Origin: Ectothiorhodospiraceae bacterium
GTDB lineage: Bacteria > Pseudomonadota > Gammaproteobacteria > Nitrococcales > Aquisalimonadaceae
Direction of reading: 5' to 3'
Assembly: GCA_003565775.1 (NCBI GenBank)
Contig: PXAT01000085.1
Span: 1-64,000 of the forward strand
DNA length: 64,000 nt
The position numbers and the translations under genes were made by a program. A model generated the notes under the pieces. That model was not told where the DNA came from. It saw only the letters and a list, made by a program, of their open reading frames with translations, and did not search any database. Of this stretch, positions 1,458 through 63,304 are shown piece by piece (position 1 is the stretch's first letter; every line of letters starts with the position of its first letter).

Positions 1458-1734
1458 TTAAGGAAACGCTGAAGTATTCCCGCGCCTGCGCCCGAGACCG
1501 GTTTTGGTCATCTGGCAAGGCGTGGTGCCGGTTCGGTAGTGATTCTACCGGGCCGGTGACGCAACGCCGGCAGGGGCCAAAACCGGCCGGTCCCTTCGGG
1601 TTGGGCCGCATTTTCCCCGACTGCGGTGTTGCGCTGCTTGACCGCAGAATGACTGCGGCGCTGCGCAGCGCGCCTTGCCTCGGAGAAAATGCGGACTCCA
1701 ACGCAGACGTGCGAATACTTCAGCGTTTCCTTAA
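1458..1734. repeat. Full-length terminal-inverted-repeat element (family copy E1)
   Basis: Left arm ttaaggaaacgctgaagtattcccgcg; right arm gcgaatacttcagcgtttccttaa; internal modules shared with 10631-10875. A second TIR start follows immediately at 1731-1746. Confidence 0.85.
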
Positions 1735-1783
1735 GGAAACGCTGACGTCGATTCCTGACAGGCAACCGATCGGAGGCGCCAGT

Positions 1784-4306
1784 TTGAAGAAGGTCCTGTT
1801 CTGGTGCGCACTGGCGCTGGTCGTGCTGATCACGGCCGGCGCGCTCGTCGGCACGGAATCCACGCGCTCGCCATCCCAGGCCGGCGGCGTCGATGGCGAC
1901 GCCGGCGACCGCCGCGGTGCCCTGGTGGATCAGGTCGTGTTCACCCAGGAATCCGACATGGGCAAGGTCAGTGGTCTGATCGAGGGTGGTGCGCATCAGG
2001 TCTTTGCCCAGGGCATTACCAGCGCCTCGGTGTTTCACCGCATCCGTGATTCCCAGAAGGTTGTCAGCGATCTCTCGTATGGCTCATCGGTCGAGTTGTC
2101 GCTGAACCCCTCCGGCCCCGAATTCGATGACGGCAGCCTCAACCCGTTCCATGTCCCGGCCATGCGTGAGGCCATGAATCGCCTGGTGAACCGGCGATAC
2201 ATTGCGGAGGAGCTCTACGGCGGCCTCGCGGTACCGCGCTATCTGCCGATCAATACCGCGTTCCCCGATTATGCGCGGCTGGCCGACGTCGCCCGCGCCC
2301 TGGAACTGAAGTATCAGCATGACCCGCGCGCGGCGGCCGACGTGATCAGCGAGACCATGCGTGAGCTGGGTGCGGTGAAACAGGACGATCTCTGGCATTA
2401 CGACGGCCGTCCGGTGCGGCTCATCGTGCTGATCCGGACCGAGGACGAGCGCCGGCGGGTCGGCGACTACGTGGCCAATCTGCTGGAGGATCAGGGGTTC
2501 CGGGTCGAACGGCGCTACCGCACTGCGGAAGAGGCCTCCCGGATCTGGATCGCCGCGCCACCGTCGTCCGGACAATGGCATATCTACACCGGCGGCTGGA
2601 TTTCGACCTCGATCAACCGCGACGTGGCCGCTGATCTTGCCTATTACTACACGCCCCGCGGCCGCGCCGAGGCACTCTGGCAGGCCTATGAGCCGGACCC
2701 CGAGTTCGACGCTCTGGCCGATCGGCTGCAACGTCGGGATTATCGCAGCTGGGCCGAGCGCCAGGCTCTCATGGCGCGCGGCCTGGAACTGGCGATGGAG
2801 GATTCCGCTCGGGTCTGGCTGGTGGATCAGCTCAACGCCTGGCCGCGGGCGGAAAACGTGGAACTGGCGGCCGATCTGGCCGGTGGCACGGCGGGCTCCG
2901 CCCTCTGGCCCTATACCCTGCGCTACCGCGACAAGGTTGGTGGCAATATGGTGCTGGCGGCGCCGAGTCTGCTCACCGAACCCTGGAACCCGGTTTCCGG
3001 CAGTGGCTGGATCTTCGACCGCATGATCCTTAACGCGATCGAGGATTCGGCGGTGATGCCGGATCCGTTTACCGGTCTGTTCTGGCCACAGCGCCTGGCC
3101 GGTGCCGAGGTGACGGTGGAAGAAGGCGTGCCGGTCAACCGCACGCTGGACTGGCTGACGCTCGAGACCGAGGCCGAGATCGTGGTGCCGGGCGATGTCT
3201 GGATTGACTGGGACGCCGCCGAAGGCCGCTTCATCACGGTCGAGGATGCCCGGGGCGACGAACCACTGACCGCCCGCAGCCGCATTCGCATTCGTTACGA
3301 GGATGGCTATCTGGATCGCTACTGGCACGATGGCAGCCAGGTCTCGATGGCCGACGTGCTGCTGCCGTGGATCCTCAGCTACGAACGCGCGAATGAGGAC
3401 AGTGAGCTGTTCGATCCGGCGCATGTGCCCACTTTCGAGGTTCACCGGCAGCATTTCCGCGGCTGGCGCATCGTCTCCGAGTCACCACTGATCATCGATG
3501 TCTACAGCGACCAGATCTATCCGGATGCCGAGAACATGGTCGGCGCGCGGGTGCCGGCGGTACAGCCCTGGCACATGCTCGCTCTCGGTATCCGCGCCGA
3601 GCGTGCCGGCGATCTGGCATTCTCGTCGAACAAGGCGGACCGGCTGCGGGTTGACTGGCTGAATCTGGTCGGCGGTCCCAGCCTGCGGACGTTGGATCGT
3701 CATCTGGAGCGCGCCAGGGACGAGGGCTTCCTGCCGTTCGCCGAGGTTCTCGGGCCGGCTCTGCGCGACAACGAGATCGAGGAACGCTATCGGGCCATCG
3801 GCGACTGGTATCGTGACCGTGGGCATTTCCTGGTCGGCGACGGCCCGTTCTATCTGCATTCGGTGCATGCCGTGGAACGCAGTCTGGTGCTGCGCCGGTT
3901 CGCCGATTTTCCCGATGCCTCGGACAAATGGCTGCGCTTCACCCGCGCCGAGATCCCCGAGTTGAATCTGGACGGGCCACTGGTGGTCGAGCGCGGCGAA
4001 GGAGCGGAGTTCCTGCTCCGTATCACCTTCGAGGGCGAGACCTACGCGGCCGAGGATATCGAAGCGGTGCGCTATCTGCTGTTCGATGGCAGGAGCGAGC
4101 TGGTGCTGCGCGGTGATGCAGAGCAGAACGAGGACGGCGACTGGTATGTGGAATTGAGTCCCGGCCAGGTGGAGATGCTCGGCACCGGCGCCAACAGCCT
4201 CGAGTTCGCGGTCACCACCCACCGCGTCGCCTTACCCAACTTCGCCACCCATGCGTTCGCCACGGTGCCGTCGCGGCGTGCGGCGCAGTCCGGAGACAAC
4301 GAATGA
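1784..4306 (+). CDS. ABC transporter substrate-binding protein (peptide/nickel, SBP family 5-like), membrane-anchored
   Basis: In-frame TTG at 1784 with GGAGG SD; N-terminal hydrophobic segment KKVLFWCALALVVLITAGALVG; followed by OppB/OppC-type permeases and two ATPases. Confidence 0.8.
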   Translation: MKKVLFWCALALVVLITAGALVGTESTRSPSQAGGVDGDAGDRRGALVDQVVFTQESDMGKVSGLIEGGAHQVFAQGITSASVFHRIRDSQKVVSDLSYGSSVELSLNPSGPEFDDGSLNPFHVPAMREAMNRLVNRRYIAEELYGGLAVPRYLPINTAFPDYARLADVARALELKYQHDPRAAADVISETMRELGAVKQDDLWHYDGRPVRLIVLIRTEDERRRVGDYVANLLEDQGFRVERRYRTAEEASRIWIAAPPSSGQWHIYTGGWISTSINRDVAADLAYYYTPRGRAEALWQAYEPDPEFDALADRLQRRDYRSWAERQALMARGLELAMEDSARVWLVDQLNAWPRAENVELAADLAGGTAGSALWPYTLRYRDKVGGNMVLAAPSLLTEPWNPVSGSGWIFDRMILNAIEDSAVMPDPFTGLFWPQRLAGAEVTVEEGVPVNRTLDWLTLETEAEIVVPGDVWIDWDAAEGRFITVEDARGDEPLTARSRIRIRYEDGYLDRYWHDGSQVSMADVLLPWILSYERANEDSELFDPAHVPTFEVHRQHFRGWRIVSESPLIIDVYSDQIYPDAENMVGARVPAVQPWHMLALGIRAERAGDLAFSSNKADRLRVDWLNLVGGPSLRTLDRHLERARDEGFLPFAEVLGPALRDNEIEERYRAIGDWYRDRGHFLVGDGPFYLHSVHAVERSLVLRRFADFPDASDKWLRFTRAEIPELNLDGPLVVERGEGAEFLLRITFEGETYAAEDIEAVRYLLFDGRSELVLRGDAEQNEDGDWYVELSPGQVEMLGTGANSLEFAVTTHRVALPNFATHAFATVPSRRAAQSGDNE

Positions 4307-5409
4307 CGACGGCCACGGAAGGCACACGCGCGCAGGGCCTGCGCCGGGATGTCCGGCGCCTCGGGCTGTTCACCGCCAAGCGCCTGCTGGCGCTGTTTCT
4401 GACCATTCTGGTCGGGGTCTATCTGACCATCCTGATCGCCAACATGGGCGGCCGGGTGGATGACCTGCGCATGGTGCAGATTCAGGGCGAAGTCTCGGAA
4501 ATGGTGCGTGGCGACCCCGCGTTCCAGGACATGCCCAGCGAGGAGCGCAATGCCCTGGTTCAGCGGCAGGTGGATCTCGAGGTCGAGCGCCTGCGGCTGG
4601 ACCAGCCGTTCATCGTGCGCAGTTTCGACTACCTGCATCGGGCCATGCTGCTCGATCTCGGGCGCGCCGAGCAGATGCACAGCGACAGCGGTTCGCGGGA
4701 CGTCTACGACATCATCGTGGAACGCCTGCCGGCGACCTTGCTGCTGTTCGGTACGGCCAACTTCCTGGTTTTCTTCTTCTCGGTCTACATCGCCTTGTCG
4801 CTGTCGCGACGGTACGGCAGCATGCTTGATCGCAGCGTTATCGCGCTGGCGCCGAGTTCGGCCGCGCCGGCGTGGTTCTATGGCATTTTCCTGATCCTGC
4901 TGTTCGCATTCGTGCTGCCGGTGCTGCCGTCGGGCGGCATGGTGCAGGCGCCGCCGCCGGAGAATCCGCTGCATTACGCACTGGACGTGTTGCGGCACAT
5001 GCTGCTGCCGGTGCTTGCCATGTTCCTGTCCCAGATTTTCATTTCGATCTACTCCTGGCGCACGTTCTTCCTGATTCATTCCAGCGAGGATTACGTGGAG
5101 ATGGCGCGGGCCAAGGGTCTGCCGGATAACCTGATCGAGCGGCGGTACATCCTGCGACCGACGTTGTCACCGATCATCACCAGCTTTCTGCTGATGCTGA
5201 TCGGCCTGTGGAGTGGCGCGATCATCCTGGAGCAGGTGTTCAACTGGCCAGGGCTGGGCACCTTGCTGTTCCAAGCCATCGGGCATCGTGATACGCCGGT
5301 GATCATCGGTTCGGTGGTGATCTTCGCCTACCTGCTGGCGATCACCGTGTTCCTGCTCGATATCCTGTACGCGGTGCTGGATCCGCGCATTCGCATTGGA
5401 GGCGACTGA
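4303..5409 (+). CDS. ABC transporter permease (DppB/OppB-like)
   Basis: EMARAKGLPDNLIERRYILRPTLSPIITSF permease motif; overlaps SBP stop. Confidence 0.88.
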   Translation: MTTATEGTRAQGLRRDVRRLGLFTAKRLLALFLTILVGVYLTILIANMGGRVDDLRMVQIQGEVSEMVRGDPAFQDMPSEERNALVQRQVDLEVERLRLDQPFIVRSFDYLHRAMLLDLGRAEQMHSDSGSRDVYDIIVERLPATLLLFGTANFLVFFFSVYIALSLSRRYGSMLDRSVIALAPSSAAPAWFYGIFLILLFAFVLPVLPSGGMVQAPPPENPLHYALDVLRHMLLPVLAMFLSQIFISIYSWRTFFLIHSSEDYVEMARAKGLPDNLIERRYILRPTLSPIITSFLLMLIGLWSGAIILEQVFNWPGLGTLLFQAIGHRDTPVIIGSVVIFAYLLAITVFLLDILYAVLDPRIRIGGD

Positions 5410-6740
5410 TGGGCCGGTTTGCCGCCCTGTCCGAGCTGCGCAACTACCCGTCGGCGGTGGTCGGCATGGCGATAATCGCCTTCCTGATTGCGCTCTCGGT
5501 CTACACCGTGATCACGATCCCGTACGCGGACGCGCTGGACAAGTGGCGCGGTGGCGAGCAGTGGCGACTGCATCCGGTGAACGCCAGTCCGGTCTGGGCC
5601 GATCGGCTCACCGGCGGGCGGGCACCGGAGACGCAGGTGGTGTCGAGTCGCGACGCGGCGATCGAACGGCAGCCCTTCGAGGGCGGTGAACGGCTGCATA
5701 TTCCGCTGCAGGTGAACTATCAGGCGGGCGACTTTCCGTCCGAGATGACCCTGTTCCTGAGTGCCGAGGGACACGAGCGCGAACCCTTTGCGCGGCTGGT
5801 CTGGCGCACGCCGGACGGCCGTGAGTTGGCGCTGGGCGGGACTCGCGTGGCCACTCAGGATCGCGTCTCGATCTCCCAGGACCGCTCTCTGGAACAGCGT
5901 CTGGGGCTGGTGCCCCATATCGGCCTGCTGGCAACGCCGGATTCCGAGCCCGGAGCGGCCGAGGTGCTGACCGGCGACTATGAGCTGACGCTCGACGTTA
6001 TCCTGTTCCAGGAGGATGCCGGGTTCGAGGCCGATCTGGTGCTTTACGGTCGGGTGCACGGCCTGGCCGGAACCGATCACCAGCGGCGCGACCTGATGGT
6101 GGCGTTGATGTGGGGAACGCCGGTGGCACTGGCTTTCGGGCTGCTGGCGGCCGTCGGCACCACGATCACGACACTGATCATCGCCGCCACCGGCGTCTGG
6201 TTCGGTGGCTGGGTCGACGCCACCATCCAGCGACTGACCGAGGTCAACATGATTCTGCCGCTGTTGCCGATTCTGGTCATGGTCGGAACGCTGTATTCCA
6301 CCAGCATCTGGCTGATGCTCGGCGTCGTCGTGGCGCTGGGGATCTTCAGCGCCGGCATCAAGATGTACCGCGCCATGTTGCTGCCACTCCGGCAGGCGGC
6401 CTATATCGAGGCGGCCCTGGCTTATGGTGCCGGCAATACCCGCATCATTCTGCGCTACATGATCCCGCGGATCCTGCCAGTGCTCATTCCGACCTTCGTC
6501 ACGCTGATCCCGACCTTCGTCTTCCTCGAGGCCTCGCTTGCGGTACTCGGCCTCGGTGATCCGGTGCTGCCAACCTGGGGCAAGGTCCTGAACGACGCCC
6601 AGAGCGAGAGCGCACTGTACAGCCAGTACTACTACTGGGTGCTGTCGCCGGCGTTCCTGCTGATGCTCACCGGGCTCGGCTTCGCGATGCTGGGATTCGC
6701 ACTGGACCGGATCTTCAACCCGCGACTGAGGGCGCTGTGA
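5409..6740 (+). CDS. ABC transporter permease (DppC/OppC-like) with large extra domain
   Basis: C-terminal permease with EAALAYGAGNTRIILRYMIPRILPVLIPTF; about 170 aa hydrophilic insertion after TM1. Confidence 0.85.
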   Translation: MGRFAALSELRNYPSAVVGMAIIAFLIALSVYTVITIPYADALDKWRGGEQWRLHPVNASPVWADRLTGGRAPETQVVSSRDAAIERQPFEGGERLHIPLQVNYQAGDFPSEMTLFLSAEGHEREPFARLVWRTPDGRELALGGTRVATQDRVSISQDRSLEQRLGLVPHIGLLATPDSEPGAAEVLTGDYELTLDVILFQEDAGFEADLVLYGRVHGLAGTDHQRRDLMVALMWGTPVALAFGLLAAVGTTITTLIIAATGVWFGGWVDATIQRLTEVNMILPLLPILVMVGTLYSTSIWLMLGVVVALGIFSAGIKMYRAMLLPLRQAAYIEAALAYGAGNTRIILRYMIPRILPVLIPTFVTLIPTFVFLEASLAVLGLGDPVLPTWGKVLNDAQSESALYSQYYYWVLSPAFLLMLTGLGFAMLGFALDRIFNPRLRAL

Positions 6741-6777
6741 TGCGGCACTGCTCCATGCAAAAACGGGGAGGGGACTG

Positions 6778-7752
6778 ATGGCGGTGCCCCTGCTCAGCGT
6801 CGAGAACCTGCGCCTGCGCTACCGGACCCGTCAGGGCCCGGTGGAAGCGGTGGCCGGCGTGGACTTCGAGATTCGCCACAAGGAAGCCCTGGTGATTCTG
6901 GGTGAATCCGGTTGCGGCAAGAGTTCGCTGGCAAAAGCCCTGATGCGCACGCTGCCGCGCAATGCAGAGCCGGCCACCGGTCGCGTGCTGCTGGAGGGCG
7001 AGGACATCATGGCACTGGATGAGGAGCGGTTCCGGCGCGAGGTGCGCTGGCTGCGCATCTCCCTGGTCATGCAGGCGTCGATGAATGCGCTCAATCCGGT
7101 GGTCCGGGTCGGTGAGCAGGTGGCGGAACCGCTGCGTGTGCTGCGGGGCTGGTCGCGGGAGCGGGCCCGGCAGCGTGCCGCCGAGGTCTTCGATCTCGTG
7201 GGTGTGTCCACCGATTTTCTGACGCGTTATCCGTTCGAGCTCTCCGGTGGCATGCGTCAGCGTGTGGTGCTGGCCATGGCGCTGATTACCGACCCGCAGC
7301 TGGTGATCCTCGACGAGCCTACCTCGGCGCTGGATGTGCTGACGCAGGCGAGCATCATGAACGTGCTCAAGCGCATCAAGCGCGAGCAGGGCACCAGCTT
7401 CATCCTGATCACCCACGACGTGGCGACCTCCAGCGAACTGGCGGATCGGGTGGCGCTGATGTATGCGGGCCAGATCGTCGAGAGCAGCAGCGCCGCCGAG
7501 TTCTTCCGCGAACCGGCACACCCTTATGCGCAGATGCTGATGGACAGCGTACCGCGGCTGCATCAGGAAACCCGGCCGACGCATATTCCCGGTCAGCCGC
7601 CGAGCCTGCTGGAACCGCCGAGCGGTTGCCGGTTTGCCGATCGCTGTCCGTCCCGTTTCAACCTGTGTGACCGCGATCCCGGCGCCTTCCGCAAGGGTGA
7701 CCGGCGCCGGGTGCGTTGCTGGCTGCATGCCGGCGGGAGTCAGTTGTCATGA
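6778..7752 (+). CDS. Oligopeptide/dipeptide-type ABC transporter ATP-binding protein (DppD-like)
   Basis: Walker A GESGCGKSS, LSGGMRQRV, C-terminal PPSGCRFADRCPSRF oligo_HPY-type motif. Confidence 0.93.
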   Translation: MAVPLLSVENLRLRYRTRQGPVEAVAGVDFEIRHKEALVILGESGCGKSSLAKALMRTLPRNAEPATGRVLLEGEDIMALDEERFRREVRWLRISLVMQASMNALNPVVRVGEQVAEPLRVLRGWSRERARQRAAEVFDLVGVSTDFLTRYPFELSGGMRQRVVLAMALITDPQLVILDEPTSALDVLTQASIMNVLKRIKREQGTSFILITHDVATSSELADRVALMYAGQIVESSSAAEFFREPAHPYAQMLMDSVPRLHQETRPTHIPGQPPSLLEPPSGCRFADRCPSRFNLCDRDPGAFRKGDRRRVRCWLHAGGSQLS

Positions 7753-8759: not shown

Positions 8760-8763
8760 CGCC

Positions 8764-8946: not shown

Positions 8947-8998
8947 ACGCAGCCGGGATACGTCGGTCTCAGTGATTCGTTCTGCACGGGAGACGACG

Positions 8999-10630: not shown

Positions 10631-10875
10631 TCAAGGAAGCGCTGACTTATTCGCACGCCTGTGTTGGAGTCCGCATTTTCTCCGAGGCAAGGCGCGCTGC
10701 GCAGCGCCGCAGTCGGGGAAAATGCGGCCCAACCCGAAGGGCCCGGCCGGTTTTGGCCCCTGGCGGCGTTGCGCCACCGGCCCGGTAGACTCACTACCGG
10801 ACCGGCACCGCGCCTTGTCAGCTGACCAAAACCGGTCCCGGGCGCAGACGTGGGAATAAATCAGCGCTTCCTTAA
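10631..10875. repeat. Full-length terminal-inverted-repeat element (family copy E2, inverted relative to E1)
   Basis: tcaaggaagcgctgacttattcgcacgcctg ... cgtgggaataaatcagcgcttccttaa; internal modules match E1 on the opposite strand. Confidence 0.85.
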
Positions 10876-17840: not shown

Positions 17841-17975
17841 TGAAAAGATCTCCAGACGTCATTCAAGTGGGGTTAAGCGTTAAGCAGACGCGGATCCATT
17901 TTCGCGCCTGCCAGATGATCAAACCGGCATGATAACCGCTATCATTTTCGAGGGCTCGCTCGAACAGGGGACTGC

Positions 17976-19738: not shown

Positions 19739-19875
19739 GAGCGGGAAGACCGGCGCGCGCCGTCCGGGTTCCATTCGGCGATGCCGCCATGATCCCGCTG
19801 TAACGTCCCTGTCACATGCCGGCGGCAAGCTGCAATGCTTCAGGAAACGCTAAACACGCATGGCAGGAGCCAGTC

Positions 19876-20724
19876 ATGATTCGTCCCGGTTCGCGAACGA
19901 TCGTTCTTCCCCTGATTGCAGTCTGCCTGCTGGTGCTCGGCGCCTGTTCGGCAACGATGCCACGTGCAGCGGTGACTGACGCGACCCCGGTCTGGTCGGA
20001 CGGGAACGGTTATGTCTGGCTGGAACCGGCAGAGAACGGCGCGCGCAATGATCATCCAGCCGAGATCCCGGCCGACGTGTTGCGCGAGAGTTTGTCGGCG
20101 TTGCGCATGGAGACCCGCCCGGGGGAGCGGCAGGACCATGCGCTCTCCGCCTTTGCCGGCGATGAGGTGTTGACAGAAGGAATGCTGGAGCGCCTGGCAG
20201 AGCCGCTGTCGCAGGCCCTTGCCCGCGCCCGGCCGGATCAGGATGTGGTGTTTTCCGTGCGGGGCTTTCGCAGCAGTACCTGGTCCAGCTACGTGGGCCG
20301 GGACGTGGTGACATCAGCACGCCTGTTCCATGACGACCTGGGGCTGCAACTGGTGGTCGGCGAGATCAACACGGAACTGGACACCGATTATCGGTATGCG
20401 CGGGGGCCGGAAGCGGTGGCGACCGGCCAGGTGCCGGTACCACACGGCAGCCGGGGGCGGGCGGCCTCCGGGCGTTGGCAGTTGCTGGAGGCCGCTGGTA
20501 TCAAGCGACACGACGGCAATGGCCAGCCGCGTCACGACTGGGTGCGAATCGATCCCTCGGCAACCCTGGTTGGCATCCGGCCCGACGCGGCCACACCCGC
20601 GCCGGTGACAGATGAATACGGCACCCGCGAGCGCCTCCGGCTGCTCCGCGAGATGTACGAGGAGGGACTGATCCCCGAGGACGTCTATCGCCGTCGTGTC
20701 GAGCAGATCGCCGAGGAAATCTAG
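19876..20724 (+). CDS. Lipoprotein with SHOCT-like C-terminal motif (paralog of 18172-19116)
   Basis: Lipobox VLGACSA; GYVWLEPAENGARNDHPAEI; ARARPDQDVVFSVRGFR; C-terminal LRLLREMYEEGLIPEDVYRRRVEQI. Confidence 0.75.
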   Translation: MIRPGSRTIVLPLIAVCLLVLGACSATMPRAAVTDATPVWSDGNGYVWLEPAENGARNDHPAEIPADVLRESLSALRMETRPGERQDHALSAFAGDEVLTEGMLERLAEPLSQALARARPDQDVVFSVRGFRSSTWSSYVGRDVVTSARLFHDDLGLQLVVGEINTELDTDYRYARGPEAVATGQVPVPHGSRGRAASGRWQLLEAAGIKRHDGNGQPRHDWVRIDPSATLVGIRPDAATPAPVTDEYGTRERLRLLREMYEEGLIPEDVYRRRVEQIAEEI

Positions 20725-20822
20725 GGAGACGCTGAAACATTCCCCCGCCTGCCTTGGAGTCTGTCTTTACTTTCCAGGCAAAGCGGGCCGTGTAGCACCG
20801 TTGCCGGGCAACATGCGGCCCG
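20724..20822. repeat. Degenerate copy of the TIR element family
   Basis: agggagacgctgaaacattcccccgcctgccttggagtctgtctttactttccaggcaaagcg...aacatgcggccc. Confidence 0.6.
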
Positions 20823-23884: not shown

Positions 23885-23931
23885 CGGCTCCGGTGGCACG
23901 CCCACTCGATCCCTGAGTCATCGTCCGCCAT

Positions 23932-23956
23932 AGGGAAACGCTGAAGTATTCCCCCT
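23932..23956. repeat. Solo arm of the TIR element family
   Basis: agggaaacgctgaagtattccccct upstream of the MCP gene. Confidence 0.65.
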
Positions 23957-24018: not shown

Positions 24019-26325
24019 GTGAATCGGGTTATTCAGTGGTTTCGTCGGTCGCCGCAACCGGCGCTGGTCCAGGCAACGCTGGCTGCCGGGCGGGATGCGG
24101 AAAACCGGGCCCTGCTCCAGCAGGTTGGTCCGCTCGGGTCGACGCTCAACGCGACCACCGACGAGGTGATTGCCGGCCTCGAACATGCGGCCCGTCGGGT
24201 CGAGGACGAGGTCAGTCAGTTCCGGGAACTGCTGGGCCTCGCGAACCAGCTCGAGGAGCGCAATCAGCTGATCGATCAGGCGGCCGGCCGTATCCGCGAG
24301 ACGGCGGCGGCGGCCTCGGATCAGGTCCAGCGGTGGCGCGGCGATATCGAGAGGGCGGTTGGCTCGGTCGGCGAGTTGACCGATTCCGTGAGTCTCATCG
24401 AGCAGCAGGTCAGCGGCCTGCGCCAGTCGCTGGGCAATGTCGCCCGTGTCGCCGAAGAAATAACCAGCATCGCCGAGCAGACCAATCTGCTGGCGCTGAA
24501 CGCCACGATCGAAGCAACCCGGGCCGGCAGCATCGGTCGGGCCTTTGCCGTGGTGGCGGAGCATGTCAAGGAACTGGCCGGCCAGACCGCCGACGCCACC
24601 GCCGAAATCCGCCGTCTGCTGGACAGTCTGACGCAACGGATCGACCAGCTCATCAGTCGCAGCACGGCCAGTGTTGAGCAGGCTTCCGCAGTGCGCCAGG
24701 GCGCAGAGGCGATCGATGCCCTGATCCAGTCCACGGTCAGCGCCATGGGTGATGTGGAGCGGGAAACCGACAACGTGGCGGTGTCGGTGCAAACGATCGA
24801 CGGTCATTGCTGTTCCCTGGTGCAGGGCCTGCACGGGATGGATGCCGGTATCTCGAGCGCCAACGAGACGCTGCAGCAGTCGCTGCGGCGGACCGGGCGT
24901 CTCGGCCGGATGACCGACGGGTTGGTGGGCCTGGACCGCGACACCGCGGAAGCAAGCTCTGCGCTGGCTGATGCCGCCGGCACCGGGCGGGCTGTCTGCG
25001 TCGAGATTTCGGACCTGGCCGGTGACGTGGATCTGATTGCCGCCCGTGTCACCGAGCATGCCGATGCTTTCGGCACCATGGTCGGTACGGTCGCGGACCT
25101 GGAGCAGTCCAATGTTGCGGTCGAGGAGGCGGTCGCCGCGAGTCGCGACCTTGCCGGTACGCTGCAGCTGGAACTCGGCCGCTCCCGGGATGTGGTGGCG
25201 GAATCGGTTTGCGGCATCGACGGGCTGGCCGACGAGGTCTCGGCGATCCAGGACGATCTGGTAGGACTGACCGAAGCCCTGCTGCAGATTCGCCAGGCGG
25301 CACGCGGTGTCGACACCATCGCCCGGCAAACCAATCTGCTGGCCCTGAATGCGTCCATTGAGGCGGCCCGCGCAAGCGGTGGCCAGGGGCAGGGTTTCGC
25401 GGTGGTGGCGGACGAAGTGAAGAAACTCGCCGCGCAAACCAGCATTGCCACCACCGATATCGACCAGACACTGCGCGGCTTGTCGGAACAGGCATCAGCG
25501 CTGCTCGAGGTCGGTAGCCGTGGCCATGCCCTGGCCGCCGAGGTGCGGCTGGCGACCGAGTCACTGGGAGAGGGCGTCACCGCCATCGGTGCGGCCATGC
25601 ACGAGGTCGACCACGGCACCACCGACATCGCCAACGCGGTGGCGGCCAGTCGGCAACTGGCGGAGAAGTTACGGGCGGCGCTGGCACTTCAGACCGAGCA
25701 GGTCGGCGAGTCCTCGACCCGGATGGATGCCATGCGGGCGCAGGTCGAGAGCCTGCTGCTGTCTGCCGAAGAGTTGCTGAACGTCGCCAACGACGGTGTC
25801 ATCGAAACGCCCGATCAGCCGATGATCGCGCGAGCGATGGAGGTCGCAGGTGAAATTGCCGCAGCGTACGAGGCCGGGTTGCGGGACGGCGAGATCAGCC
25901 GCGAGGCATTGTTCGACCGCAATCACCGCCCGATTGCCGAGACCAACCCGCCGCAGTTCCTGGCCCGGCATACCGAGTTCACCGATCAGACGCTGCCGCC
26001 GATCCAGGAGCCGGTCTACCAGTCCGACGACAAGATACTGGCCTGCTGTACCACCGACGAAACCGGCTATATAGCGACCCACAATCGCCATGTCTCGAAG
26101 CCTCAGCGCCCCGACGATCCGGTCTGGAATGCGGCCAACTGCCGCAACCGTCGCGTCTTTGATGATCGTGTCGGACTGGCCGCGGCCAGGAACACCGAGC
26201 CGTTTCTGCTGCAGGCCTATCGTCGCAACATGGGTGACCGTTTCGTCCTGACCATGGATGCGTCCGCGCCGATCCACGTGGCCGGTCGCCACTGGGGCAG
26301 TGTGCGCATCATTTATCTACCCTGA
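24019..26325 (+). CDS. Soluble methyl-accepting chemotaxis protein with two MA signalling domains and a C-terminal sensor domain
   Basis: Hairpin 1 [38 protein letters not shown]; hairpin 2 [40 protein letters not shown]-terminal FDRNHRPI...[24 protein letters not shown]; no TM segments seen. Confidence 0.93.
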
Positions 26326-27269: not shown

Positions 27270-27300
27270 CTTAAGGAAACGCTGAAGTATTCCCGCGTCT
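27270..27300. repeat. Solo arm of the TIR element family
   Basis: ttaaggaaacgctgaagtattcccgcgtct, exact consensus arm. Confidence 0.75.
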
Positions 27301-32163: not shown

Positions 32164-32295
32164 TTAAGGAAGCTCTGATCTATTCCCGCGTCCGCGTTGG
32201 AGTCCGCATTTTCCCCCGGGGGCAAGGCGCGGTGCGCAGCGCCAAGGTTATTCTGCGGTCAAGCAGCGCGACGGCGTCAACCGACTCCTTGAATC
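32164..32295. repeat. TIR element family copy (E7) with the optional insert seen in E1
   Basis: ttaaggaagctctgatctattcccgcgtccgcgttggagtccgcattttccc...gcaaggcgcggtgcgcagcgcc...attctgcggtcaagcagcgc. Confidence 0.75.
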
Positions 32296-36002: not shown

Positions 36003-36100
36003 GCAGTTGAGGAAAAGCTGAAGTAGCTTGCACGCCCGCGCTGGCGTCCGCTTTTTCTCCGGGCCAAGGCGCGCCGCGCAGCGCCGCCGTCATTGAAAAT
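36003..36100. repeat. TIR element family copy (E8) in dctQM/dctP divergent region
   Basis: ttgaggaaaagctgaagtagcttgcacgcccgcgctggcgtccgctttttctccgggccaaggcgcgccgcgcagcgccgccg. Confidence 0.7.
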
Positions 36101-36228
36101 CACTTGCACCGGGGCCCGCCGCTGCAGGCCTTTTCCAGTCCGGATACGTGACTACATTTTGATGACGGATTTTGACCGTAGCGTACTTTTCCCGCGCTGA
36201 ACACCGCGTAGACAGCGGCAAACGCTGT

Positions 36229-50816: not shown

Positions 50817-50910
50817 GAGGGAAAGACTGACCTGTTTCCGCGTCTGCGCCCGAGACCGGTGTCGGTCATCTGGCAAGGCGCGGTGCCGGAACCAGGTCAG
50901 TCTTTCCCTC
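50817..50910. repeat. Short complete TIR element (E9) with co-varied arms
   Basis: gagggaaagactgacctg ... caggtcagtctttccctc, 18-bp perfect arms around the shared cgtctgcgcccgagaccggtgtcggtcatctggcaaggcgcggtgccgg core. Confidence 0.88.
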
Positions 50911-56199: not shown

Positions 56200-56316
56200 G
56201 AAATCCCCGAAGCCGGCCTCGCGGGTGTGTGCGGGACTGGCTCCGGACACCCGACAGGACCCGGCGTTTCCAGCGAGGCCGCACGGCGCGTTCGCCTGGC
56301 GCCGCAACGGAATGCC

Positions 56317-56547: not shown

Positions 56548-56620
56548 GCGAAACCCCTCCCCCGGGGTGTTGTCATCCGTCGCGTCGGGCGACGGGATGA
56601 CATCTCCCTGAATGACGTCC

Positions 56621-56748
56621 GGAAAACGCTGAGGCATGGCCGTGTTCGCGTCGGAGACCGCTTCAGGTCATCCGCCAGGTCGCAGTCTTGCGTTCCTGAC
56701 GGACCATGCGGCTCCCGACGCGAACAGGCGATGCATTCCGCGCTTCCC
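56621..56748. repeat. Diverged TIR element family copy (E12)
   Basis: ggaaaacgctgaggcatggccgtgttcgcgtcggagaccgc vs reverse complement of gcggctcccgacgcgaacaggcgatgcattccgcgcttccc. Confidence 0.55.
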
Positions 56749-56831
56749 AAAGCCGCCGATTGTGTCGTTGTATGGGTGTTTGTCCTGTCCAGCTCCCAGT
56801 ATAGGAGATGCCGCCGGCACACGACGGGACG

Positions 56832-58346
56832 TCATGGATATGTGGTGCCACCGCCCGGTCCCAGGGGCAGGCCGGTGACCACCCAGATTGCCAGAAGCAG
56901 GCTCCAGAAAATGGCGAAACTGATGGCATAGGGCAGCATCAGGGCCAGCAGGGTGCCGATGCCCGCGCTTTGCTGCCAGCGCTGGGCAAAGGCCAGAATG
57001 ATTACCCAGTAGGGGTTGAGCGGCGTGATGACATTGCTGACCGAGTCGCCGACACGGTAGGCGGCCTGGGTCAGCTCGGGGCTGAGGCCGGCCTGCATCA
57101 GCATCGGCACGAACACCGGCGCCAGCAGGGCATATTTTGCCGAGGCCGAGCCCATGACCAGATTGGCCAGGACCACCAGGGCAATGAAGCTGGTAACCAT
57201 CAGGGGTGCGGGCGCCGCCAGACTGGCCAGTGCCTCACCGCCGGCAATCGCCAGCAACAGGCCGAGCTGGCTGTAGCGGAAGGCCTCGATGAACTGCGCC
57301 GCGGCGAACGCAAGGACGATATACGGGGCGAGCCCGCGCACCGTGTCGCCGAGCATGCCGGCCACATCGCGATCGTTACAGATGGTGCCTGCGGTGATGC
57401 CGTAGGCAAGGCCGCAGGCGAGGAATATCAGAAACAGCAGTGGCACCATCGCCTCGATCCAGCGGGCGAATTGCTCGCCGTCGCCATGCAGTGGCGCGCC
57501 CGGGATCAGGATCAGCAGAAGCACGCCGATCATCAGTCCGACGAGGGTCAGCCCGGCGGCACGCAGACCGGCACGCGGCCGTGTGCCGGCATCAGAATCC
57601 ACCACCGCATCGTCCGGCGCCGCGATTGCCTCCCGTTGCTGTCGCGGCTCCACGAAGCGCGCGGTGACCCACCAGCCGACCAGCGTGAGCAGGAACGCCG
57701 AGCCCGCGGCGAAGAACCAGTTGGCGGTCACCGCTACCCGGTAATCAGGAGCAATGATCTGGGCGGCGCTCTGGGTCAGGCCCGCGAGCAGCGGATCCAG
57801 CGCCGTGATGAACAGGTTGGCGCTGTAACCGGCAGACACACCGGCGAAGGCGGCGGCCAGCCCCACCAGCGGCGAGCGACCGGCAGCATAATAAAGCGCG
57901 GCCGCCAGCGGTGGCAGAACCACATAACCCGCATCCACGGTCAGCGAGGACGTGATGCCGAGGAAGATCACGGCCGGAGTCAGCAGCCGTTGCGGCGCAC
58001 TGCGCAGGCTTTTTTCGAGCAGGGCGGCAAGCAGTCCTGAGCGCTCGGCGATGCCGATGCCGAACATTGCCACCAGCACGATCCCGAGTGGCGGAAACTG
58101 CACGAAGTTCTGCACCATGTGGCTGAGCAGCCACCAGATGCCGTCACCGTCGAGCAGGCTCCTGACTTCGATCCTTTCCGCATCGGGTGTCAGTGCCGAC
58201 CAGTCCAGCCACGCCCCGAGCTGCGACAGCAGCATCACCAGCAACAGGGCCATGGCGAACAGGGTGACCGGCTCCGGCAGACGGTTGCCGAGACGTTCCA
58301 GCAGATCGAGCCAGCGATTGCCCTGCAGGTCGGTGCTGCCTGTCAT
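56832..58346 (-). CDS. AbgT family transporter
   Basis: LERLGNRLPEPVTLFAMALLLVMLLSQLGAWLDWS; MVQNFVQFPPLGIVLVAMFGIGIAERSGLLAALLEKSL; C-terminal PLNPYWVIILAFAQRW. Confidence 0.95.
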   Translation of the reverse strand: MTGSTDLQGNRWLDLLERLGNRLPEPVTLFAMALLLVMLLSQLGAWLDWSALTPDAERIEVRSLLDGDGIWWLLSHMVQNFVQFPPLGIVLVAMFGIGIAERSGLLAALLEKSLRSAPQRLLTPAVIFLGITSSLTVDAGYVVLPPLAAALYYAAGRSPLVGLAAAFAGVSAGYSANLFITALDPLLAGLTQSAAQIIAPDYRVAVTANWFFAAGSAFLLTLVGWWVTARFVEPRQQREAIAAPDDAVVDSDAGTRPRAGLRAAGLTLVGLMIGVLLLILIPGAPLHGDGEQFARWIEAMVPLLFLIFLACGLAYGITAGTICNDRDVAGMLGDTVRGLAPYIVLAFAAAQFIEAFRYSQLGLLLAIAGGEALASLAAPAPLMVTSFIALVVLANLVMGSASAKYALLAPVFVPMLMQAGLSPELTQAAYRVGDSVSNVITPLNPYWVIILAFAQRWQQSAGIGTLLALMLPYAISFAIFWSLLLAIWVVTGLPLGPGGGTTYP

Positions 58347-58517
58347 TGACGATACCCTGTGCCGGAAACCCCCCGGTCTACTGTATCCTGCGCCGGGCCG
58401 CAGTGGCAGGTCGGACAGCCGGGGATGCTGAACCCGGCCCGGAAAACGCTGTCCGCACTGAGTGGGCCGGCACGAGGAGCGGCCATCAAATTTTCAACAC
58501 CGAAACGGGGTGACACC

Positions 58518-59405
58518 GTGAAAAGCAGACATTGTTCACGACTGCAGATGCTGATTGTTGGCCTGATGGCCGCAATTGCCATGACCGCACTGCAGGCGCA
58601 GGCCGACTGGCCGGACGAGATGCCGGGCGACGCCGAAGGCATGAAGGCGTATCTGGAAACGCGCTACGACATGCTCGACGCCGAACTCGAGGCTGCCATC
58701 GAAGTGGCGAATCGTGAAGGCAAGCTCGACATCTTCGAGCTCGACGCGGCCTTGCATTACAGCATGTCCTCGGAGAGCAGCGATCGGACCTACGCGCGCG
58801 TCAACCAGGGGCTGCGCGAGGCTGCCGGGAGCGACGAGATCGACAGTGAAACGGTGCAGCAGCTCGAGGAGCTGGCTGCCGAGCGCAAGGCTGCCCACGA
58901 AGAAATCGGTAACGAACTGGTGGCGGCCCTGATGAACAAGATGGCCGAGACCGGTGCCGGAGACAATCAGCAGGCGCAGGCCTGGCTGGCCGTGTTTGCC
59001 CTGTTTGCCGTGGACTTCAGCGAAGCCATGGGGGCGATGAGTACCGATGCGGTGCGTGGTGCCGTCGACGGTATTCGACAGGATCTGCCATCGCAGATTC
59101 TGTCCGCCGCGACATCGGCTCCGGACAAGGAAACACGCGAGAACGCCTTCCTCGAGGTCATGCAATCCAGCGCCGAGGCCTCGGACACCGCCTGCCAGCG
59201 GCCGGCCGAACGGACTGTTCCCGGTGGACGCGAGGATACCGACCACCTGCGTGGCATGATGGCCGAGCATTGCCAGATCATCATCGCCGGCGTTGCCGTG
59301 GGCGAGATGCCCGAGGCCATGCTGACGCTGTACCAGGCCGCCGGCTGGGATGAGACGATGGCGCCCGTGATGGACGATCTGGTGTCCCGTACCCGCGACG
59401 ACTGA
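58518..59405 (+). CDS. Hypothetical exported alpha-helical protein
   Basis: GTG start; signal peptide LQMLIVGLMAAIAMTALQAQA; charged helical body; no family recognised. Confidence 0.6.
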   Translation: MKSRHCSRLQMLIVGLMAAIAMTALQAQADWPDEMPGDAEGMKAYLETRYDMLDAELEAAIEVANREGKLDIFELDAALHYSMSSESSDRTYARVNQGLREAAGSDEIDSETVQQLEELAAERKAAHEEIGNELVAALMNKMAETGAGDNQQAQAWLAVFALFAVDFSEAMGAMSTDAVRGAVDGIRQDLPSQILSAATSAPDKETRENAFLEVMQSSAEASDTACQRPAERTVPGGREDTDHLRGMMAEHCQIIIAGVAVGEMPEAMLTLYQAAGWDETMAPVMDDLVSRTRDD

Positions 59406-59427
59406 AGGTCGATGCAATGCCTGACGA

Positions 59428-59463
59428 AAGCCGGTCATCCTCGTGGTTGACCGGCTTTTTTTC
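59428..59463 (+). terminator. Intrinsic terminator
   Basis: aagccggtca ... tgaccggctt ttttt. Confidence 0.88.
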
Positions 59464-59538
59464 GGTTCAGCGTTCGTTCAGTTGCCCGCTGGCAAGCTGT
59501 GCCCGAATGCTGGAAAAGGGCAACAAGAGGACACAGGC

Positions 59539-59910
59539 ATGCTACGCAATACACTGATCGGATTGATGCTTTCGGCGGCGCTGGTGGCGCCGATGACGGC
59601 AAGTGCGTATGACCAGAGTACGCGTGCGGCCATTGGCGGCGGGGTTGGCGGCGCTCTGGGCGGCTACCTCGGCTCGGAGTTCGGGGGGCGCGAAGGGGCC
59701 ATCCTCGGCGGTGCCCTGGGTGGCGGCGCCGGCGCGGCCGTCAGTACGCGTGACCGGCAGCCGCGTTACCAGGAACCGCGGCGCTACGATGATCGCTATC
59801 AGCGGGGTGGTCGCTATCAGGAAAGCCACCCCCACCATTACCACAAGGCGCCGCGTCGCGGTGGACCGCCGCACTGTCCTCCCGGGCTGGCAAAACAGGG
59901 TCGCTGCTGA
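59539..59910 (+). CDS. Glycine-zipper exported protein
   Basis: Signal peptide then GGGVGGALGGYLGSEFGGREGAILGGALGGGAGAAV; basic/His-rich tail. Confidence 0.75.
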   Translation: MLRNTLIGLMLSAALVAPMTASAYDQSTRAAIGGGVGGALGGYLGSEFGGREGAILGGALGGGAGAAVSTRDRQPRYQEPRRYDDRYQRGGRYQESHPHHYHKAPRRGGPPHCPPGLAKQGRC

Positions 59911-59934
59911 AACGGCAGCATCAAGCAGCAACAA

Positions 59935-59960
59935 AAAAGCCGGGCTTCTGCCCGGCTTTT
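59935..59960. terminator. Bidirectional intrinsic terminator between convergent genes
   Basis: aaaagccgggc ttct gcccggctttt. Confidence 0.9.
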
Positions 59961-59979
59961 CGTTGGCCACTCACTTCAT

Positions 59980-60654
59980 TCAGTAACCGGGAGGTGCTTG
60001 CCGCCCCGCTTCGCCCGGGGTGCCACCGCCGCCCGGAACCCGACCCGGGCTCTGCCCCGGAAGCGGCTGCTGGCCCTGCTGTCCGGCCGGCGGCTGCTGT
60101 TGCTGTTGCTCGTCCTGCGGCTGGTTGGGCATGGCCCGCGGACCGGCCTGCTCACCACGCAACTGCTCGCCGGGCATCGGCTGACGTCCGCGACCTTCAC
60201 CGACACCCGTGGACTCCTGCCTCCGGGGCGCCAGTTGCGACTCGTCCGGAGCGAGGTCCGGCAGACCCTGTTCCTCGGCGGCCGGCGGTTGCTGCGCAGC
60301 AGCCGGTGGCTGAGCCGGATCTGCGGGCTGCGCCGGTTCGCCGACGTCACCCGGTGCCGGTTGTGCAGGCTGTGCAGGCCGGGTCTGCTGCCCGGTCGGT
60401 GGTTGCTCCGCACCGGCTGGTGGCGCCGGTGCCCGTTCGGTTTGCCCCGGCGGCGGTTCCGGCGGGGTTCCGGCATCCGGTTGCCGTCCGGGCGCCTCGC
60501 CCGGCGGCTGGGTGCGCTCCATGGCGTCGTCGGGAAGCTGCTCGCCGGGCATTTGCGGCGGCTCGGCATGCGGTTGGGTCTGTTGGCTGACGGCATGCCC
60601 GAGCGGGAGCGTCAGCAGGGCCAGGCCCAGTGCGCCTGTGCGAAGTCGAATCAT
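59980..60654 (-). CDS. Exported Pro/Gln/Gly-rich low-complexity protein
   Basis: Signal peptide MIRLRTGALGLALLTLPLGHAVSQ; body rich in PAQPAQPA, QQQQQPP, MPGEQL (twice). Confidence 0.6.
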   Translation of the reverse strand: MIRLRTGALGLALLTLPLGHAVSQQTQPHAEPPQMPGEQLPDDAMERTQPPGEAPGRQPDAGTPPEPPPGQTERAPAPPAGAEQPPTGQQTRPAQPAQPAPGDVGEPAQPADPAQPPAAAQQPPAAEEQGLPDLAPDESQLAPRRQESTGVGEGRGRQPMPGEQLRGEQAGPRAMPNQPQDEQQQQQPPAGQQGQQPLPGQSPGRVPGGGGTPGEAGRQAPPGY

Positions 60655-60851
60655 CTTGCGTTCCTCCTGAATGTCCGCCGGCTCGCCAGAGGAAAAGCCT
60701 CTGCGGGCTCGGCTCGCGATGAGCGGGACGCTTACGGGGCAACGCCGGTGAATTGCAGTGCGCGCGGCCGGAGGCCGGGGTGCAAGGGGCACGTTCGGAG
60801 CTGCCGCGTTCGTAGCTTCATCCTACGGCATTGGCAGGTCACGAAAAACCC

Positions 60852-60905
60852 GGAGAAACGCTGAAGTATTCCCGCGTCTGCGCCCGAGACCGGTTCGCGG
60901 CCGGC
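60852..60905. repeat. Half copy of the TIR element family (E10)
   Basis: ggagaaacgctgaagtattcccgcgtctgcgcccgagaccggttcgcgg. Confidence 0.7.
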
Positions 60906-60926
60906 TCGGCTTTGTCATGCAAACCA

Positions 60927-63200
60927 TCAGTGGACGCGCGATACCCTCTCATGCGGCGTATCGGGTTTCTCGCCACGACTGGCCGCAATGAAACCGTCGC
61001 TCCAGCGGCGGATATCGTGGTGATTGACGATATCGAACAGCTGTCGCAAGCGTTCACGGGCCTCGCTGGACGGAAGGTTGAGCGCCAGGTAGCAGGTATT
61101 GGCCAGATCCCGGATGTCATGCGGGTTGGTCAGCACGGCGCCGCGCAGCTCTGCGGCGGCACCGGCGAATTCGGACAGGACCAGCACGCCGGTGCCCTGG
61201 GTCAGGCCCTGAACGGCCACGAACTCCTTCGCCACCAGATTCAGCCCGTCGCGCAGCGGCGTGATCCACATGACGTCCGCCATGGCATACCAGGCCACGA
61301 CCTGCTCGAACGGCAGGGGCCGGAAGAAGAACTGGATCGGGGTCCAGTCCACGGTGGTGAAACGGCCGTTGATCCGGCCGACTGCCTGCTCGATCTGATG
61401 CTGCAGTTCCCTGTAGATCTGCATTTCCGCGGCCGCCGGCACGCACACCGTGGTCAGCTGCACCTTGCCCTGCAGCTCCGGGTTCTCTTCCAGCATCCGC
61501 TCGAAGGCATGCAGCTTTTCCAGAATGCCCTTGGTGTAGTCCAGCCGTTCCACCGACAGAATCAGGCGGGTGTCACCCAGTGCTTCTCGCAGTTCCTGCA
61601 TGTGGGCCTGCACTTTTTCGTCGTCCAGGCAGCCCTGCACCCGACTCATGTCCAGACCCACCGGATGCGCGCCGAGGCCGATCTCGCGATCATTGACCGA
61701 GATCGCGGTGGTGGTCTCTTCCAGTCCGACGGCGCAGCCGTAAGTCAGGAAACGGGGTGCGCAGTTCTCGCGCTTAAGGATCTCGATCGGTGTGACGCCG
61801 CGGGCAACATCGACGAAGTTCTCCACCTGCCGCGGCACGTGAAAGCCGATGTAGTCGCATTGCAGAAGGCTGCCGATGATCTCCCGGCGCCAGGGCACCA
61901 CGTTGAAGACGTCGGCGGACGGAAAGTAGGTGTGGTGGAAGAAGGCGATACGCAGATCCGGCCGCATTTCGCGCAGGAAGGCGGGCACCATCCAGAGGTT
62001 GTAATCATGCAGCCAGACCAGGGCACCCTGGGCGGCTTCCTCGGCGGCGCGTTCGGCGAAGGCGCGGTTCACGCGCAGGAAGACCTGCCAGTGGTCCTCA
62101 CGGAAGCTGGCCCGTTCCCAGAAGGTGTGCAGCGTCGGCCAGAACGCCTCCTTGGAAAAGCGCCGATAGAATATGTCCACATCCGACTTGCTCAGGGCGA
62201 TGCGCGCGCAGGTCAGATGCGGATAGCGTTCCGGGTCGACTGCGGTATGCGTCTCGAAGTCCTCGCCATCGGCGTCATCGTGCTCGGCCCAGGCAACCCA
62301 GGCGCCTTCGCGACCATTGCCGAAAAGACCGAGCAGCGTCGGGATGATGCCGTTCGGGGAGGTGGGGCGCCGTCGCACCAGCTTGCCGTCGATGCGTTTT
62401 TCCTCGTAGGGCAGTCGGTGATAGACGATCACCAGCTCGGCACCGCCGGGCTTGACCACCTCCTGCATTTCGGCGGACATGCCGTGCTGACCCAGAAAGC
62501 CGAACCAGGCCATCGCCTCGATGATGCCGCCGCAGCCGGGCTCCGCGGCATGCAGCACCCGGGCGTTGCCTTCGGTTGCATCCAGCAGCGCCGATTCCGA
62601 TTCGCCGACGCAGACGCCCTTGTAACCGGTACGGAACAGGCTCAGGTCGTTCAGCGTGTCGCCCGCCACCAGCACATCGTCGCCGTCGATCTGCAGCCAT
62701 TCGACCAGCGACTTCAGCGTGCTGCCCTTGTTGACGCCCGGTGGCAGCACGTCCAGATACAGGTCGGCCGAATACAGCAGGTCGCAGCCCAGATCCCGGA
62801 CCCGTGCCGCCAGCTCCTCATTGCCGGCTTGTTCCGGATCACAGAAATACGAGCAGCGACGGAGTTGCGGGATGTCCTGCCGCTTCAGCCAGGTCAGATC
62901 GGCCAGGGCTTCGGCAATCAGCTGTTCCCCGGGCCAGAGATCGTCGATCGGGGACTGCAGTTCGCTGATCGGCTGCAGCGTGTCGCCGTGGTAGATGCCC
63001 GCGCCGACATCGGTGACGATGTAATCCGGTACCGGCAATGTCGGGTCGGCCAGCAGGGGCAGCACCGACTCCAGGCTGCGTCCGGTCACATAGGCCAACT
63101 GGATATCGGGATGGCGCGCGATGCTCTGATAGAGCCGCAGCCGTTGGCTGATCTCGCCGCCAAGAAAGGTCCCGTCCAGATCGGTTGCAAGCAGCATCAT
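60927..63200 (-). CDS. Bifunctional glucosylglycerol-phosphate phosphatase/synthase-like fusion (HAD + GT20)
   Basis: N-terminal SPP-like HAD (LLATDLDGTFLGG...AYVTGRSLESVLPLL...DYIVTDVGAGIY...LVAGDTLNDLSLF); C-terminal GT20 (LVWLHDYNLWMVPAFLREMRPDLRIAFFHHTYFPSADVFNVVPWR...SVERLDYTKGILEKLHAFERML). Confidence 0.88.
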   Translation of the reverse strand: MMLLATDLDGTFLGGEISQRLRLYQSIARHPDIQLAYVTGRSLESVLPLLADPTLPVPDYIVTDVGAGIYHGDTLQPISELQSPIDDLWPGEQLIAEALADLTWLKRQDIPQLRRCSYFCDPEQAGNEELAARVRDLGCDLLYSADLYLDVLPPGVNKGSTLKSLVEWLQIDGDDVLVAGDTLNDLSLFRTGYKGVCVGESESALLDATEGNARVLHAAEPGCGGIIEAMAWFGFLGQHGMSAEMQEVVKPGGAELVIVYHRLPYEEKRIDGKLVRRRPTSPNGIIPTLLGLFGNGREGAWVAWAEHDDADGEDFETHTAVDPERYPHLTCARIALSKSDVDIFYRRFSKEAFWPTLHTFWERASFREDHWQVFLRVNRAFAERAAEEAAQGALVWLHDYNLWMVPAFLREMRPDLRIAFFHHTYFPSADVFNVVPWRREIIGSLLQCDYIGFHVPRQVENFVDVARGVTPIEILKRENCAPRFLTYGCAVGLEETTTAISVNDREIGLGAHPVGLDMSRVQGCLDDEKVQAHMQELREALGDTRLILSVERLDYTKGILEKLHAFERMLEENPELQGKVQLTTVCVPAAAEMQIYRELQHQIEQAVGRINGRFTTVDWTPIQFFFRPLPFEQVVAWYAMADVMWITPLRDGLNLVAKEFVAVQGLTQGTGVLVLSEFAGAAAELRGAVLTNPHDIRDLANTCYLALNLPSSEARERLRQLFDIVNHHDIRRWSDGFIAASRGEKPDTPHERVSRVH

Positions 63201-63207
63201 GCTCTCC

Positions 63208-63304
63208 TTAATCAAGCGCTAAATTATTTCCGCATCTGCGTTGGCGTCCGCATGTTTTCCGAGGCAAGGCACGCTGCCGCGGAAATGAATCAGCGCTTCA
63301 TTAG
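63208..63304. repeat. Short complete TIR element (E11) filling the MFS-ggpPS intergenic gap
   Basis: ttaatcaagcgctaaattatttccgcatctgcgttggcgtccgcatgttttccgaggcaaggcacgctgccgcggaaatgaatcagcgcttcattag. Confidence 0.82.

Follow-up and report, generated by a model that had tools for sequence, protein, structure and literature searches.

Copies of the element in the window

The window, meaning the whole 64-kb stretch of DNA analysed, contains two near-complete copies of a small repeated element (E1 and E2, in opposite orientation) and about ten further copies that are short, broken or reduced to a solo arm. The terminal arm, GGAAACGCTGAAGTATTC, has four matches in the window at three or fewer mismatches, against 0.00 in shuffles. 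Twelve copies fall into one direct-repeat family, with several inverted matches of 50-180 bp between loci. The parts of E1, followed by the remaining copies, are located as follows.

1458-1461, no strand: left target-site duplication of the full copy E1, TTAA
1462-1479, + strand: A-end 18-bp terminal inverted repeat of E1; the complementary arm runs on to ~1490
1500-1581, + strand: hairpin unit A of E1, GGCAAGGCG...GCAACGC (model R1, 44.3 bits, E 2.7e-9)
1592-1600, no strand: junction of the E1 cloverleaf, with linker CCCTTCGGG (CCCNNNGGG), read from the sequence
1612-1693, - strand: hairpin unit B of E1, facing the other way (model R1, 68.9 bits, E 9.8e-16)
1713-1730, - strand: B-end 18-bp terminal inverted repeat of E1
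1731-1734, no strand: right target-site duplication of E1, TTAA, which doubles as the start of an adjoining solo arm (1731-1745)
10631-10875, - strand: near-complete copy E2, flanks TCAA/TTAA
10672-10721, + strand: shortened hairpin B of E2
10752-10833, - strand: hairpin A of E2
17880-17909, + strand: degenerate solo arm, 73% identity
17978-18045, + strand: truncated B-end arm plus a portion of module B
20721-20790, + strand: degenerate arm with a B-like start, truncated
23930-23953, + strand: solo arm
27271-27300, + strand: solo arm with TTAA
32164-32283, + strand: truncated copy, B-end arm and shortened hairpin B at 32213-32283 (E 6.5e-5)
36003-36110, + strand: degenerate truncated copy with a weak shortened hairpin at 36049-36098 (E 0.049)
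50817-50910, + strand: short 94-bp copy, part of module A between matched arms
56621-56745, no strand: diverged short copy whose arms match each other and not the consensus
60854-60895, + strand: arm and start of module A, truncated
63208-63304, + strand: short copy, shortened hairpin at 63249-63288 (E 2.3e-4) between both arms

The original prediction had placed arms throughout the window, and these are found at the predicted sites far above chance, except at 19848, where a match of about 11 bases lies inside an open reading frame and was dropped. The exchangeable modules A and B that it proposed are real: both occur in the long copies (1458-1734 and 10631-10875), and one of them, or a fragment, in the short ones. 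Solo arms exist as well (the arms at 23930, 27271 and 60854 are solo or truncated), and the element copies have no coding capacity, as had been claimed. The linker motif CCCNNNGGG recurs at the corresponding junction in most other full copies.

Copy number, ends and candidate transposases

In the host genome (3.2 Mb in 215 contigs), the genome-wide search that had been proposed along with the prediction, carried out at the DNA level with E1, returns at least 42 near-full copies of ~280 bp. The arm pattern gives 404 matches at three or fewer mismatches, compared with 0 for the reversed pattern, and relatives are positive too. The copies interrupt the assembly, many contigs of the host genome terminating inside one. 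A scan of named genomes located the exact arm pattern in Methylonatrum kenyense AMT 1 and in an Ectothiorhodospiraceae MAG. The arm abounds in the host genus and in further genera of its family, with middle bases that form a species-typical variant.

A target-site duplication, which the original prediction had suggested looking for, is present. The element ends are 18-bp inverted repeats flanked by a direct 4-bp duplication with the consensus YTAR. Among 112 arm pairs drawn from the host genome, M. kenyense and other genera of the family, 34 have palindromic identical flanks (TTAA/TTAA or CTAG/CTAG). Where the flanks are non-palindromic, 10 pairs are direct-only (for example CTAA/CTAA, CTTG/CTTG and CAAG/CAAG) and 0 are inverted-only. 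Base preference outside the ends ceases after four positions. The outermost four bases (TTAA, CTAG and so on) are the duplicated target site and no part of the arm.

As predicted, most copies lie between genes: by gene calls from a simple codon-bias method, 40 of the 45 copies in M. kenyense are intergenic, against 12% for random placement. The orientation of the genes around copies shows no preference (22 tandem, 12 divergent and 10 convergent, in proportion to all gaps). When filled sites were compared with empty ones, another of the checks proposed, about 20 copy sites of the host genome had an identifiable syntenic counterpart in M. kenyense, and nearly all of these counterparts are empty; the syntenic flanks are 75-80% identical, too diverged for the single target copy to be read.

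How closely do the two ends of a copy follow each other? Across 57 full copies, the variable columns of an arm match its own partner in 291 of 339 cells. When the partner is replaced by the right arm from the copy whose body is most alike, the match is 204 of 340, and with random partners it is 192 ± 8. The two arms of a copy change jointly, independently of the body. Selection for two ends that fit one transposase would explain this matching, as would local palindrome correction. Columns 19, 21 and 24 hold fixed asymmetries, and the arms are therefore not simply homogenised. An orthologous copy was also sought as proof that arms co-evolve in place; the sole candidate (L019 versus C1:131010 of M. 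kenyense, G001) resembles two insertions ~10 bp apart and was set aside.

A genome from another genus of the same family (G004) carries four copies of a 1.2-kb insertion sequence with the ends GGAAACGCTGATTTATTC / GGAAGCGCTGATCTAATG and YTAR duplications (CTAA/CTAA, TTAG/TTAG). Its 327-aa transposase contains DDE_Tnp_1 and DUF772 domains, which makes the insertion sequence IS5 type; past the ends, its body and those of the cloverleaf elements are unrelated by eye. In genome G274, a DDE_Tnp_1 gene adjoins GGAAACACTGATTTAATC and the cloverleaf element present there ends GGAGACGCTGATTGAATC, a juxtaposition suggesting that G274 probably holds an autonomous IS5-type element with matching ends as well. 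The transposase with matching ends that the original prediction anticipated is thus found in G004 and probably G274, but not in the same-genus genomes G001-G003, which have no IS5-type (DUF772) transposase, while the host genome has one weak 496-aa match.

Eight element-rich genomes that are complete or nearly so (G470, G466, G760, G788, G620, G595, G708 and G790) lack DUF772 as well. In G620, no autonomous element sharing the ends is visible, only ~266-bp pairs and solos. On these grounds, IS5 was rejected as the universal mover. Two proteins of the host genome were likewise rejected: a 393-aa DDE_Tnp_1 protein on contig C198 has no matching end and one 3-mismatch arm match inside a gene, and no arm was found near a weak 487-aa DDE protein on contig C214. 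Both transposase contigs are possibly binned contaminants. A search with PF01797 (Y1_Tnp) detected no Y1 transposase or RAYT in the host genome.

The copies are short, non-coding, dispersed and numerous, they have terminal inverted repeats and a target duplication, and they are present or absent at syntenic sites, as is characteristic of MITEs. Together with the matching IS5-type ends in other genera, this bears out the MITE-like non-autonomous family that had been predicted.

Folded body and distribution across Pseudomonadota

The body of the element takes the shape of a cloverleaf, composed of the end stem, hairpin A, the CCCNNNGGG linker (a tiny hairpin) and hairpin B. E1 folds with z = -11.3 on the + strand and -12.2 on the - strand. 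Both A and B are ~80-nt hairpins of a single kind that face opposite ways, and GGCAAGGCG ... GCAACGC is kept in both, forward in A and backward in B. The internal loops CAAGGCG / CAACGC are conserved; the stems vary freely, with compensation. In other genera of the family, the elements have equal length (255-270 bp between the arms) and the same fold with very different sequence. The bodies of closely related copies vary too little for RNAalifold, which returned a mixed fold from them; the cross-genus alignment solved this.

In the A1 set (42 hairpins, 87 aligned columns), eight columns are invariant, nearly all of them within or next to the internal loops. Paired cells amount to 88.8%, against 60.4% when shuffled, and compensatory changes occur in 22 of 24 pairs. 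Covariation is 0.738, compared with 0.214 for shuffled alignments (0/500) and at most 0.185 for slid ones. The A2 set comprises 39 hairpins found by the hairpin model R1 at loci outside those used to build it. Of its cells, 91.1% are paired, with a covariation of 0.801 against 0.196 shuffled, a score that leans upward because A2 was aligned by R1 itself. Most A2 loci have a second hairpin, unasked for, ~108-113 bases away on the opposite strand.

At E <= 0.001, R1 has matches in 127 of the 399 Pseudomonadota genomes; these represent 69 of the 213 genera and over 30 families, both in the class of the host and outside it; the other 272 genomes have no match at this threshold. The E-values are rough owing to a short calibration, and the best scores, of 60-85 bits, are well clear of the doubtful zone. 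Counted at E <= 0.001 each, R1 hairpins number at least 150 in the host genome (G000), 117 in M. kenyense AMT 1 (G001), 32 in G620 and 9 in G470. In Gammaproteobacteria, the pattern GGCAAGGCGN{22,52}GCAACGC occurs 109 times in the host genome and up to dozens of times in unrelated genomes (control, 0-2 per genome). The cloverleaf surrounds the matches in unrelated genomes, with end and stem sequences that are themselves unrelated.

Most full copies across genomes follow the two-hairpin plan beneath unrelated ends, and single-hairpin versions of ~160-180 bp also occur. Many additional genomes contain full elements, among them Azotobacter chroococcum and Halomonas plasmid records, most with the linker CCCNNNGGG, and cloverleaf elements are found on a Pseudomonas plasmid. 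A search of plasmid collections with the window copy and of phage collections with copy L312 returned no sequence near either. Two observations extend beyond the original prediction, namely that modules A and B represent a single structural unit in two orientations and that the family reaches far past the host genome.

Possible role of the hairpins and relation to known systems

The two strands of the hairpins are not equivalent. On the motif-sense strand, in pair columns chosen with RNA energy parameters, G-U exceeds A-C by 92 to 8 in A1 and by 68 to 10 in A2 (24 to 2 in the better hairpins and 44 to 8 in the partner hairpins), or 160 to 18 for both sets together. In the terminal-repeat stem, the ratio is only 18 to 26. 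The excess of G-U over A-C makes it probable that the motif strand works in folded form, either as RNA or as ssDNA. Selection appears to act on the hairpins as single strands, folded and of one polarity, and on the ends as double-stranded DNA. Because A and B face opposite ways, each strand, and each transcript that runs across a copy, contains one sense hairpin and no more, and the function of the hairpin would thus be independent of the orientation of insertion.

We consider it likely that these repeats are members of a superfamily of small non-autonomous transposons (MITEs) that extends across Pseudomonadota and shares a conserved folded body. Their ends would be bound by a DDE transposase acting in trans, which would cut YTAR with a 4-bp stagger and move the element; for the GGAAACGCTGA ends, the mover would likely be an IS5-type enzyme. 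Readout of the hairpins would follow the GGCAAGG...CAACGC sense, on a folded single strand. Since individual copies decay and the motif nonetheless persists in many lineages, selection would seem to act by way of the spreading element and not by way of a need of the host for each copy.

What might read the hairpin? It is quite possible, although we propose it with reserve, that the sense hairpin is present as RNA in read-through transcripts and is bound by a conserved host factor, making insertions tolerable or active. Reading as RNA ranks first because tolerance of G-U is most natural in RNA and because the copies are intergenic, where read-through is expected. The lack of a gene-orientation preference around copies means that an RNA role receives no direct support from their placement. 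Somewhat more speculatively, the CAAGGCG/CAACGC hairpin could be the true unit of inheritance, its ends being swapped to suit the resident transposases, and a conserved factor could read it as RNA or ssDNA in either insertion orientation.

Alternatively, and next in rank, the hairpins may act as ssDNA during replication or transposition, recognised by a transposase or by a host protein on the strand exposed at the replication fork. IS200/IS605, REP/RAYT and attC recombination are precedents for the recognition of ssDNA hairpins. The polarity, seen as G-T over A-C, fits this possibility too, and one sense hairpin per strand would render the element independent of the direction of replication. 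It seems less probable than a role as RNA: the direct 4-bp duplication points to a DDE enzyme working on double-stranded DNA, and no Y1 transposase was found in the host genome. The structural RNA role raised in the original prediction is half borne out, in that the structure is conserved by covariation across Pseudomonadota, and the folded strand may be RNA or ssDNA.

An ordinary MITE, namely an internally deleted IS5-type element with an arbitrary body whose palindromy stems from template-switch correction of the inverted arms, would possess the terminal repeats, the target duplication and the related IS5-type insertion sequence, and palindrome correction would yield the preferential match of an arm to its own partner. 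However, correction alone would not preserve asymmetric loops, a ~52-nt core, the CCCNNNGGG linker and the spacing of the units across unrelated genomes and stems, nor does it sit well with the fixed mismatches in the three arm columns or with the G004 insertion sequence, whose body has no visible kinship with those of the elements. The cross-genus covariation with conserved loops largely refutes this explanation, which is improbable. REP/BIME-type repeats mobilised by a RAYT, the other origin envisaged by the original prediction, are a most improbable source: the hairpin pairs are inverted, intergenic and numerous, but the host genome has no Y1_Tnp match, the ends bear a 4-bp target duplication, the unit is ~80 nt as against the 20-40 bp given for REPs (PMC3733652), and the arms do not start with GTAG/CGTC.

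If the superfamily of MITEs with a conserved folded body is accepted, it offers a testable case in which a selfish element, by spreading, brings a nucleic-acid structure under selection, and it directs attention to the conserved bacterial factor that would read the hairpin. The R1 search model reveals cloverleaf elements in about one third of the sampled Pseudomonadota genomes. The family accounts for hundreds of unannotated intergenic palindromes and for assembly breaks in these genomes.

Among known systems, MITEPsy1 of Pseudomonas syringae has 18-nt ends and a 4-nt duplication of CTAG or YTAA, transposes in vivo and is attributed to the IS5-family element ISPsy2 (PMC3189936). The likeness to MITEPsy1/ISPsy2 lies in the 18-nt IS5-type terminal repeats (one end of MITEPsy1 is GGAAGGTCTGAAAAAGCC), the 4-nt duplication and the lack of a gene. 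MITEPsy1 itself is 100 nt long with about six copies in its strain, and the accessible part of its description, on which the comparison rests, reports no conserved cloverleaf (PMC3189936). The Coxiella elements QMITE1 and QMITE2 are likewise non-autonomous, high-copy gammaproteobacterial MITEs, some of which yield sRNAs. Unlike the cloverleaf family, they come with no cross-species structure in the text available, and they differ in length and direct repeats (300-400 bp with 2-3 nt for QMITE1, reported there as without orthologues elsewhere; 150-190 bp with 7-11 nt for QMITE2) (PMC5896051).

TIMEs, which are Tn3-derived elements of Pseudomonas, are also foldable and non-autonomous at ~262 bp, but they are described as having 38-bp Tn3 ends and a 5-6 bp duplication and as usually single copy (PMC4133298); with 18-bp ends and a 4-bp duplication, the elements reported here were not identified as TIMEs. 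REP/BIME repeats with their RAYTs share the inverted intergenic hairpin pairs, REPs being described, in the portions available, as short GTAG/CGTC-tagged palindromes tied to Y1 enzymes (PMC3733652, PMC2817692). The intergenic repeats R200 (320 bp) and R6 (177 bp) of P. fluorescens are MITE-like and high copy, and identity with them is possible, the comparison being with their partial description (PMC2718517). A review of prokaryotic MITEs (PMC10969869) and a paper on stem-loop families (PMC2267715) describe other elements in the parts accessible.

Rfam 15 gave 0 matches in the window above the gathering score, and 11 loci compared with it at E <= 1 yielded sub-threshold, unrelated matches alone. 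No description of the cloverleaf family was found in the open literature surveyed. Subfamilies may already be catalogued elsewhere, for instance in ISfinder or in subscription papers; the unifying cloverleaf structure appears to be undescribed so far. MITEs are customarily defined by their ends, the interior being taken as filler. In the cloverleaf family it is the interior that compensatory change has preserved across classes, and the ends are almost free.

Insertion sites and target reuse

Within two tandem pairs of full copies in the host genome, and between the full copy E1 and the solo arm that follows it in the window, a single target sequence serves both neighbours.

Host C127:93950-94503, tandem pair L008/L009, single TTAA/CTAG common to both
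Host C143:12243-12794, tandem pair L004/L039, single TTAA/CTAG common to both
Window 1731, solo arm, target sequence common to it and E1

It seems that the target duplicated by one copy is reused as a target. Another host copy (L002, C153:17800-18076) lies exactly midway in a palindrome longer than itself, CTGCTCATCAACCG-TTAA...TTAA-CGGTTGATGAGCAG; the insertion has perhaps divided what was a terminator stem.

Neighbouring repeats

A heptamer array adjoins the copy at locus L013, with the unit GGTTCCA in the host and GGTTTTA in Methylonatrum kenyense. Within the window, repeat D7 (24465-24524 versus 25314-25373, 77%) points to a putative partial duplication of a coding stretch at 24392-25373, which by eye appears methyl-accepting chemotaxis-like.

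Arms, cargo and hairpin types

Some M. kenyense (G001) copies, 46-50 bp long, comprise two arms and a short loop and nothing else, one of them with a CTAA/CTAA duplication; such mini-copies result from deletion or else are the smallest units able to move. Elsewhere in this genome the arms are normal but a different palindromic module (CGTAGGGTGGGTCAAGCGAAGCGGACCCACGC) stands in for some of the body that they enclose, and the arms therefore carry differing cargo hairpins.

C24:6124-6173, mini-copy (example)
C1:15242-15291, mini-copy (example)
C1:442466, CGTAGGGTGGGTCAAGCGAAGCGGACCCACGC module
C1:18890, CGTAGGGTGGGTCAAGCGAAGCGGACCCACGC module
C12:83675, CGTAGGGTGGGTCAAGCGAAGCGGACCCACGC module
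C12:159337, CGTAGGGTGGGTCAAGCGAAGCGGACCCACGC module

An element's two hairpins often differ in sequence type, the types being CGCAGGCAATGG.. and GAGGAGAGAAGTTTGG.. (loci L312, L315, L321, L323, L328, L359 and L360), which suggests an old duplication with a conserved division of labour.
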